NCBI GenBank assembly: GCA_029238515.1 | Contig: JAQWFW010000027.1 | Coordinates: 1 to 64,000, forward strand | Source of the DNA: Flavobacteriaceae bacterium | GTDB taxonomy: Bacteria; Bacteroidota; Bacteroidia; Flavobacteriales; Flavobacteriaceae | Length of the DNA stretch: 64,000 nucleotides | Reading direction: 5' to 3' | Part shown: in pieces, positions 36,724 through 40,054 of the stretch | Numbering within the stretch: position 1 is the first letter of the stretch | How the letters are laid out: each line of letters starts with the position of its first letter | The notes under the pieces: generated by a model | The model's database searches: none | What the model saw: the letters and a program-made list of their open reading frames with translations, nothing else | Told to the model about the DNA's origin: nothing | Program-made: the position numbers and the translations under genes

Positions 36724-37623
36724 ATGAACTGGAACAATGCCTTACGGGATTTTGAACATTATTTAAACATTGAACGCGGTCTATCGAAACATACCGTGAT
36801 CAGCTACCGTATGGATGTACAAAAATTGATTGTTTTTTTGGAAACAAACAAAAAATCTATCAGTCCCATAGACATTGACTTCGAAACGGTACAAGTTTTT
36901 TTGTACGAGTTAGCCAAAAGAGTTAATGCTCGTACACAATCGCGAGTTATATCTGGCTTAAGGAGCTTTTTCGATTATCTTATTTTTGAAAACTACCGCA
37001 CCACAAACCCTTTAGAACAAATTGAAGCGCCCAAAATTGGCCGTAAACTTCCAGACACACTATCCGTAAAAGAAATTGACAAGATTGTAGCAGCCATAGA
37101 TTTGAGTCATCCTTTGGGAGAGCGCAACAAGGCTATTATCGAAACCTTGTACAGTTGTGGTTTGCGTGTGAGCGAGCTCACACATTTGAGACTGTCCGAT
37201 TTATTTTTCGATGAAGGGTTTATAAAAGTCACCGGGAAAGGCAACAAGCAACGGTTTGTGCCTATTGGTAAAGACACCCAAAAGATTATCAATTTATACC
37301 GTCACCACGCCAGAACCTTGCTTAATATTGACCCTCAGCACATGGATACACTTTTTTTGAATCAACGAGGAAAACAACTCACACGGGCTATGATTTTTAC
37401 GATTGTTAAAACATTCACACAAAAAGCTGGTATTGAAAAATCGATTTCTCCCCACACCTTTCGCCATTCTTTTGCCACTCACCTTTTAGAAAATGGCGCC
37501 GATTTACGCGCAATTCAAGTTATGCTTGGTCATGAAAGCATTACTACAACAGAAATTTATATGCACATCGATAAAAGCCATTTAAAACAAGTAATGACCT
37601 CTTTTCATCCGCGTCGGACATAA
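36724..37623 (+). CDS. xerD: Tyrosine recombinase XerD/XerC
   Basis: LYSCGLRVSELTHLRLSDL, HTFRHSFATHLLENGADLRAIQVMLGHESITTTEIYMH. Confidence 0.92.
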   Translation: MNWNNALRDFEHYLNIERGLSKHTVISYRMDVQKLIVFLETNKKSISPIDIDFETVQVFLYELAKRVNARTQSRVISGLRSFFDYLIFENYRTTNPLEQIEAPKIGRKLPDTLSVKEIDKIVAAIDLSHPLGERNKAIIETLYSCGLRVSELTHLRLSDLFFDEGFIKVTGKGNKQRFVPIGKDTQKIINLYRHHARTLLNIDPQHMDTLFLNQRGKQLTRAMIFTIVKTFTQKAGIEKSISPHTFRHSFATHLLENGADLRAIQVMLGHESITTTEIYMHIDKSHLKQVMTSFHPRRT

Positions 37624-37669: not shown

Positions 37670-39247
37670 TTATTTCGCAATATTTACAGCTCGTGTTTCT
37701 CGAATAACGGTAACTTTTACTTGTCCTGGATAGGTCATATCCGTTTGAATTTTTTGTGAAATTTCAAAAGACAATCGGCTTGCGTTGTTGTCGTCTACTT
37801 TTTCGCTTTCAACAATCACTCTCAATTCTCGTCCAGCTTGAATAGCATAGGCCTTTTGAACTCCTTTGAAATTGAATGCTATTTGTTCCAAATCTTTTAG
37901 ACGTTGTATATAGGAGTCCAATACTTGACGTCTAGCTCCAGGTCTTGCTCCAGAAATTGCATCACACACTTGAACAATTGGTGAGAGTAGAAATTTCATT
38001 TCAATTTCATCGTGGTGTGCACCAATAGCATTGCATACTTCTTCTTTTTCACCATATTTTTCGGCCCATTGCATACCCAAAATAGCATGAGGAGTTTCCA
38101 TATCAACCTCAGAATCAGGAACTTTACCGATATCGTGCAATAGCCCTGCTCGTTTGGCCAATTTTGGATTGATCCCCAACTCTGCGGCCATAACGCCACA
38201 AAGTTTGGCGACTTCTCTAGAGTGCTGCAATAAGTTTTGACCGTAAGAAGAACGGTATTTCATTTTTCCGACTGTTTTAATCAACTCAGGGTGCAAACCA
38301 TGAATACCCAAATCGATAACGGTGCGCTTTCCGACTTCAATAATTTCTTGTCCAATTTGTTTTTCTGTTTTACGGACAACTTCTTCAATTCGTGCTGGAT
38401 GAATTCGCCCATCTGTTACGAGCTTGTGTAAAGACAGTCGAGCAATTTCACGACGTACTGAGTCAAAGCACGAAAGAATGATGGCTTCTGGTGTATCGTC
38501 TACAATGATTTCTACGCCAGTAGCTGCTTCAAGTGCTCTAATGTTTCGTCCTTCACGGCCAATAATACGCCCTTTCATGTCGTCCGATTCGATATTGAAA
38601 ACAGAAACACAGTTGTCTACGGCTTCTTCAGTACCAATACGTTGAATGGTATTGATGATGATTTTTTTGGCATCTTGTTCCGCTGTAAGTTTAGCTTCTT
38701 CCATTTTGTCTTGCACATAGGCCATCACGTCATTTTTGGCTTCAGATTTTAGAGATTCTACCAATTGTGCTTTGGCATCTTCCGCGGAAAGACCAGAAAT
38801 AACTTCCAGTTGTTGCACTTGGCTTTTATGCATTTTGTCTAACTCCTCTTGGCGCTTGTCCAAAACCAAAAGACGTTGGTCATAATCCTTCTTTTTGGAC
38901 TCCAACTCTTGACTCAGTTTTTTGTTTTTAGACAATTCAGAAGATACTTGAGATTCTTTATCTCTTATGCGTTTTTCGGCTTCAGTCATTTTTTTATCTC
39001 TCGATAAAATTACTTTTTCATGCTCAGATTTTAACTCTAAAAAGCGTTCTTTGGCTTGAAATATTTTGTTTTTTTTGATGCTCTCTCCTTCTGACTTTGC
39101 TTTAGAAATAATATCACTTGCGGTGCGCTTTGCATTTTTTGTGATTTGAGTGGCATTATTTTTTTCTCTTATTTTGGAAATGATCAGACCTACGACAAGC
39201 CCCAATACTGCGGCTCCAGAAGCGATCAATATGATGTTTTGATCCAT
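37670..39247 (-). CDS. rny: Ribonuclease Y
   Basis: N-terminal TM helix, coiled coil, KH domain [36 protein letters not shown] domain LLHDIGK. Confidence 0.95.
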
Positions 39248-39265
39248 TATTTGTGGTTTTAATTA

Positions 39266-39433
39266 AAAAAAAAGCCTGTAAAGATCTGGGTTTTGTATAA
39301 ACTCCTTTTAAACAGGATTTAGAGCTGAAAAGCTGATCAAGGGTCTGCGACAAGGCAGCATGCTTTTACAACTTAAACGGACTCCATTTATAGAATTCTC
39401 GTTGAGTTTATCAAAAAATTGACCAATACAGGC
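39266..39433 (-). ncRNA. ssrS: Candidate 6S RNA (long nested rod-like RNA between zapA and rny)
   Basis: Nested pairings: 39274-39280 with 39427-39433 (GCCTGTA/TACAGGC); 39297-39304 with 39404-39411 (ATAAACTC/GAGTTTAT); 39328-39333 with 39362-39367 (AAAAGC/GCTTTT); 39345-39348 with 39355-39358 (CTGC/GCAG). Poly-U follows the closing stem on the minus strand. zapA-ssrS synteny is known from other bacteria. Confidence 0.75.
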
Positions 39434-39450
39434 AGTATGTACTTTGTATT

Positions 39451-39753
39451 TTAAAGAACGTTGGCGTCTAAGTGTTGGTCTAGTCGCTGATCTAAATCAA
39501 TCAGACGTTGCTCGAGGACTTCACTTAAACTGTTTTTATTTATTTTCGTTTGTTCCGTTTCAGCGGCAAATTGCAAGGCACACATGGCCAAAACGTCTTG
39601 CTTGTCTTGAACGGAATAGCTTTGTTCAAATTTCTTTACGGTTGCATCAATCTTCTGAGCAGCTAAACGCAAACCTTCTTCTTGGCTTGGCGCTATTGTC
39701 AAGGGATAAACCCGATTGGCAATAGATAATTTAATTTTTAGTTGCTCACTCAT
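39451..39753 (-). CDS. zapA: Cell division protein ZapA
   Basis: MSEQLKIKLSIANRVYPLTIAPSQEEGLRLAAQKIDATVKKFEQSYSVQDKQDVLAMCALQFA. Confidence 0.9.
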   Translation of the reverse strand: MSEQLKIKLSIANRVYPLTIAPSQEEGLRLAAQKIDATVKKFEQSYSVQDKQDVLAMCALQFAAETEQTKINKNSLSEVLEQRLIDLDQRLDQHLDANVL

Positions 39754-39763
39754 GAGTTATTAT

Positions 39764-40054
39764 TTAGTCCGATAAACTAGCAATGCAATCGTTTATCTCT
39801 TTGATCAAAGCATTTATTTTGAGCTTTGAAGCTCGTTTATCTTCGTTACTGCCTAGCATTGAACTTGCAATTTTTAAAGAATCAAACTCTGTCTGCTTCT
39901 CTTGAAGCAATTGCAATTGATTCTTGTTTTGGGATTTTAATTCTTGTATTTCCCTTTTCAGAGCACTATTTTCGTCTTTCAAAGATCCAAACTGGTTCAG
40001 TATCTTGTCTATTTTAACTTCTAGTGTTTGGACGATTGTTTCGATTTTGCTCAT
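39764..40054 (-). CDS. Small coiled-coil protein (ZapB-like position)
   Basis: 96-aa heptad-rich ORF directly upstream of zapA. Confidence 0.75.
   Translation of the reverse strand: MSKIETIVQTLEVKIDKILNQFGSLKDENSALKREIQELKSQNKNQLQLLQEKQTEFDSLKIASSMLGSNEDKRASKLKINALIKEINDCIASLSD

Follow-up and report, generated by a model that had tools for sequence, protein, structure and literature searches.

Known 6S RNAs and the zapA–rny locus

Several described RNAs are close to the one analyzed here. The discoverers of the 6S-Flavo RNAs (Rfam RF01685) judged that these have the same function as 6S RNA (Weinberg et al., 2010; PMC2864571), and a 6S RNA is known to be transcribed in Flavobacterium psychrophilum (PMC9723704). 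In Bacteroides thetaiotaomicron, both the 6S RNA and its short product RNAs (pRNAs) have been seen (PMC7366714). The 6S RNAs of the general family 6S RNA/SsrS (RF00013; E. coli, B. subtilis) form a rod composed of a closing stem, a central bubble, and an apical arm, and the E. coli gene follows zapA (PMC7641849).

The analyzed window, i.e., the whole stretch of 64,000 nucleotides, comes from an uncultured marine flavobacterium, and the minus strand of its zapA–rny gap almost certainly encodes the 6S RNA of this organism. Judged by its sequence, this is a real and ordinary 6S RNA, known in kind and new in this genome. The rod architecture described above for RF00013 is found here too and, as in E. 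coli, the gene follows zapA; the downstream gene is rny here versus ygfA/fau in E. coli. The locus comprises the following features:

36724–37623, plus strand: xerD, convergent, beyond rny
37670–39247, minus strand: rny, ribonuclease Y, directly downstream of the RNA (RNase_Y, TIGR03319, 639.6 bits)
39266–39435, minus strand: predicted 6S RNA gene (6S-Flavo type), about 165–170 nt (171.8 bits with the full-length model R1)
39451–39753, minus strand: zapA, cell division protein, directly upstream of the RNA (ZapA, PF05164, E 1.5e-19)
39764–40054, minus strand: short coiled-coil ORF before zapA (weak, sub-cut-off match to ZapB, PF06005, E 8.5e-4)

The original prediction had named zapA and rny correctly, and the gap between them is present as described, except that its length is 203 nt, not 204. 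ORFs similar to the coiled-coil ORF also precede zapA in L038, L046, and L075; the order zapB-like ORF, zapA, 6S RNA is the gammaproteobacterial one.

Identification with Rfam models

At curated cut-offs, the Rfam scan of the whole window reports only a tRNA. In a sensitive scan of positions 39200–39500, 6S-Flavo (RF01685) matches the minus strand at 39299–39407 with 81.7 bits (E 1.7e-14), covering the full model (positions 1–108 of 108), while the next best score among all Rfam families is 18.3 bits. The match is 3.3 bits short of the curated RF01685 gathering cut-off of 85 bits, which is a cataloguing threshold and not a biological feature. Three congeners pass this cut-off at the same locus (86.4, 85.2, and 85.1 bits). 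The slightly sub-threshold score is thus a trait of the lineage, in which other members exceed the cut-off only narrowly.

The general 6S model, RF00013, has no match at E ≤ 0.01 in the genome itself or in 295 other genomes of the class, although controls such as E. coli score positive. Since RF00013 models other branches, this miss is compatible with membership in the 6S functional class. Of the two Rfam models named in the original prediction, 6S-Flavo matches below its cut-off and the general one does not match. The 6S identity proposed there is supported by the full-model match to RF01685, the covarying rod, and the conserved gene position.

The genome (1.7 Mb, 91% complete) contains a single convincing copy; other RF01685 matches, all with E ~1 or worse, were rejected as candidates for a second one.

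Fold and covariation of the rod

The predicted parts of the RNA are, from its 5′ to its 3′ end:

39427–39433, minus strand: closing stem, 5′ strand GCCUGUA, pairs with 39274–39280
39404–39416, minus strand: inner closing stem, 5′ strand UUUUGAUAAACUC, 96.4% of cells paired
39386–39403, minus strand: central bubble, 5′ strand, begins with AAC
39321–39385, minus strand: apical arm, helices GGAGU/GCUCU, AAGUU/AGCUU, AAG/CUU, and CUGC/GCAG plus loop
39305–39320, minus strand: central bubble, 3′ strand AAAUCCUGUUUAAAAG, conserved, family form UAAACYUG...
39291–39304, minus strand: inner closing stem, 3′ strand GAGUUUAUACAAAA, in which GAGUUUAU and CAAAA pair and one A is bulged
39274–39280, minus strand: closing stem, 3′ strand UACAGGC, pairs with 39427–39433
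39266–39273, minus strand: U-tract after the closing stem, conserved UUUUUU, probably a terminator

Compared with dinucleotide shuffles (n = 200), the minus strand at 39266–39433 is strongly stabilized (–45.8 kcal/mol vs. –29.96 ± 3.6 for shuffled sequences; z –4.40; 0/200 as stable); the plus strand of this region has a fold z-score of –2.48. Covariation was analyzed in the zapA–rny gaps of 54 family members, aligned by sequence with MAFFT, so that the structure did not shape the alignment. As drawn, the rod (closing stem of 7 pairs, inner closing stem of 13, apical helices of 5 + 5 + 3 + 4) is paired in 97.6% of 1989 cells over the 54 orthologous loci. An alignment of these spacers among relatives had been put forward as a check of the original prediction, and it reveals compensatory changes, with both sides altered, at 23 of the 37 pairs. 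None of the five measures used is reached by shuffles (0/500), and sliding the partner strand by 1–3 columns lowers pairing to 26–51%. In the outer closing stem, all seven pairs are formed in 54/54 sequences and six of the seven are changed on both sides; in the apical arm, 96.9–97.8% of cells are paired, with compensatory changes in 13 of 17 pairs.

Three of the four helices originally drawn (GCCUGUA/UACAGGC, AUAAACUC/GAGUUUAU, and CUGC/GCAG) are present and conserved, and so are the large open region and the U-tract. The fourth, AAAAGC/GCUUUU, occurs in the single-sequence fold only (70.1% of cells paired vs. 68.4% in shuffles) and is rejected as a conserved helix: its strands are part of AAGUU/AGCUU and AAG/CUU, which together with GGAGU/GCUCU make up the conserved pairs of this region. 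A 3-bp hairpin, CCU/AGG, in the 3′ strand of the bubble was also considered; its pairs are formed in 43–53 of the 54 sequences with mostly one-sided variation, and it is not claimed.

The resulting unbranched rod with a closing stem, a large central bubble, and an apical arm has the architecture of the 6S class. The full-length match to RF01685 spans the apical arm and the two strands of the bubble and includes the bubble edge ACUCAAC; the family-wide orthologues occupy the same locus. Two differences are seen: in the source genus, the 3′ strand of the bubble is longer by one base (UAAAUCCUG for UAAACYUG), and the RF01685 model, with its 108 positions, lacks the two closing stems, which are well conserved here.

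Central bubble and proposed mechanism

By analogy with the 6S RNA class, the rod would imitate an open promoter. In slowing growth, RNA polymerase carrying the housekeeping sigma factor (sigma-A) would bind the rod, dampening transcription; in recovery, the polymerase would transcribe a short pRNA, using the 5′ bubble strand as template and reading on into the closing stem, and this synthesis would unfold the rod, freeing the polymerase. From the same analogy we infer transcription, polymerase binding, growth-phase control, and the pRNA start.

The trinucleotide AAC at 39401–39403 is unpaired yet invariant (54/54). In E. coli 6S RNA, pRNA synthesis starts at the corresponding edge of the bubble, and the 5′ strand starting with AAC is proposed as the pRNA start region here. 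Since AAC is invariant at this edge, it weakly suggests a pRNA beginning with 5′-GUUGAGUUUAUC (proposed start GUUGAGUUUA). The expression and the pRNAs of the B. thetaiotaomicron 6S RNA, from the same phylum, support the mechanism outlined above (PMC7366714).

In about 20 of the 54 family sequences, the 3′ strand of the bubble contains TAAACTTG, which agrees with five of the six specified bases of TAnnTTTG, the –7 box of flavobacterial sigma-A (PMC9723704). This partial box was not found in the source genus. The match being partial, and absent in the source genus, promoter mimicry in the bubble is not claimed at the sequence level.

An RNA homologous to 6S-Flavo whose function has changed or been lost, so that it does not act on RNA polymerase here, would agree with the score under the curated cut-off and with the promoter mimicry not being evident by sequence. 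We consider it very unlikely, since this genome and its congeners retain every helix as well as the unpaired AAC of the bubble, and the rod persists even in strongly reduced genomes.

Position in the family and losses of rny

RF01685 has one match each in 148 of 151 genomes of the family, including 127/127 genomes of good quality, and within the genus the RNA is present in 11/11 congeners. In the family loci, it is located between zapA and rny, in gaps of mostly 180–260 nt; the differences in gap length are not divisible by three, which speaks against a coding sequence. The full-length model R1, built from the family, finds the RNA ~16–26 nt after the zapA match in 40/40 chosen named relatives (Psychroserpens, Lacinutrix, Winogradskyella, Aquimarina, and others).

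A sigma-70 scan for a promoter ahead of the RNA yielded nothing above chance. The block GTTCTTTAAA recurs in the family ~20–30 nt upstream of the 6S closing stem, preceding (T/A)TACTGCC; in the window, this block and the final zapA codons overlap. It is a possible promoter or processing element.

Ten loci have no rny downstream, and the RNA is still found beside zapA there. Six of them belong to the same genus (L037–L039, L045–L047) and the others are from elsewhere in the family (L074, L075, L080, and L095). The nine genomes that hold these loci (MAGs, 73–90% complete) yielded no above-cut-off RNase Y match. Three of the loci (L038, L046, and L075) were inspected, and in each the convergent xerD is the next gene after the RNA, only tens of bases away. 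The rny gene was removed cleanly while the RNA stayed and, given the distribution of the rny-less loci, was probably lost more than once. Clean loss of RNase Y is probably recurrent in reduced marine flavobacteria, and the enzyme seems to be absent from the genomes concerned.

These loci bear on the possibility that the RNA is a cis-acting leader of rny (a 5′ UTR element), e.g., one through which RNase Y would regulate its own mRNA by feedback, as might be suggested by its location just ahead of rny in almost every family member. Since the RNA outlasts rny, it cannot serve rny control alone; a leader function is rendered extremely unlikely by the persistence of the RNA beside zapA in the ten rny-less loci, by the U-tract, which would terminate the RNA ahead of rny, and by the match to a family of trans-acting RNAs. 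Finally, a terminator or a repeat-derived hairpin without a function of its own, which would equally end in a stem and a U-tract, has negligible probability, being refuted by the covariation of a long rod with internal helices across the family, and the RNA is single-copy. The preferred reading is, hence, a 6S RNA.

6S-like RNAs in the class Bacteroidia

Of the 296 class genomes sampled, 15 have an RF01685 match, and 11 of these belong to the family. The zapA gene is upstream of rny in nearly all of the ~100 class genomes examined, and R1 reveals 6S-like rods in 22 of 97 class loci upstream of rny (E ≤ 0.01). Where measured, the clear R1 matches sit in gaps of at least 200 nt; in many other genomes the gap is shorter than 150 nt. 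The class-level rods share the bubble edge and have a closing stem CCCGCA/UGCGGG with a U-tract; their apical tip is often forked into two hairpins, and AAACUCAACA recurs at the bubble edge in most of these relatives. Rfam at its cut-offs finds nothing in 20 loci carrying such rods.

Of 246 class genomes, 92 contain a match to the class-level model R2. Among the matches compared with rny positions, 25 immediately precede rny and ~16 occur in other, varied neighborhoods. Both models give only approximate E-values, and the matches of R1 itself served to build R2; weak matches (E > 1e-7) are therefore provisional.

Among the class loci, 6S-like RNAs of ~200 nt are seen in the zapA–rny gaps of L113, L124, L127, L128, L139, L157, L160, L161, L166, L175, L183, L187, L189, L192, L193, L195, and others. 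A 6S-like match away from zapA and rny is seen in L060, L312–L321, L324–L328, L330, and L331; of these, L312 and L326 share one neighborhood, and L318 and L325 another (with a MarR-like gene downstream, by eye). A 2014 survey, as cited in PMC7366714, predicted 6S RNAs in the phylum; given such prior predictions, the class-wide copies are not claimed as first sightings.

It is conceivable, if on the whole unlikely, that the order zapB-like ORF, zapA, 6S RNA reflects a linkage predating the split of Bacteroidota and Pseudomonadota and tying 6S RNA to cell division, and that most copies in Bacteroidia are larger, often forked, and invisible to both Rfam 6S models, many of them residing in the zapA–rny gap.

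The analysis adds a 6S RNA missed by annotation at Rfam cut-offs, in a class where public models find almost no 6S RNAs outside one family. In Bacteroidia, the place after zapA and ahead of rny is a helpful pointer to 6S RNAs, and the relatives that repeatedly and cleanly lost rny but retained the RNA offer a natural experiment that separates the two. The interest of the locus lies in this class-wide position rule and in the losses of rny.
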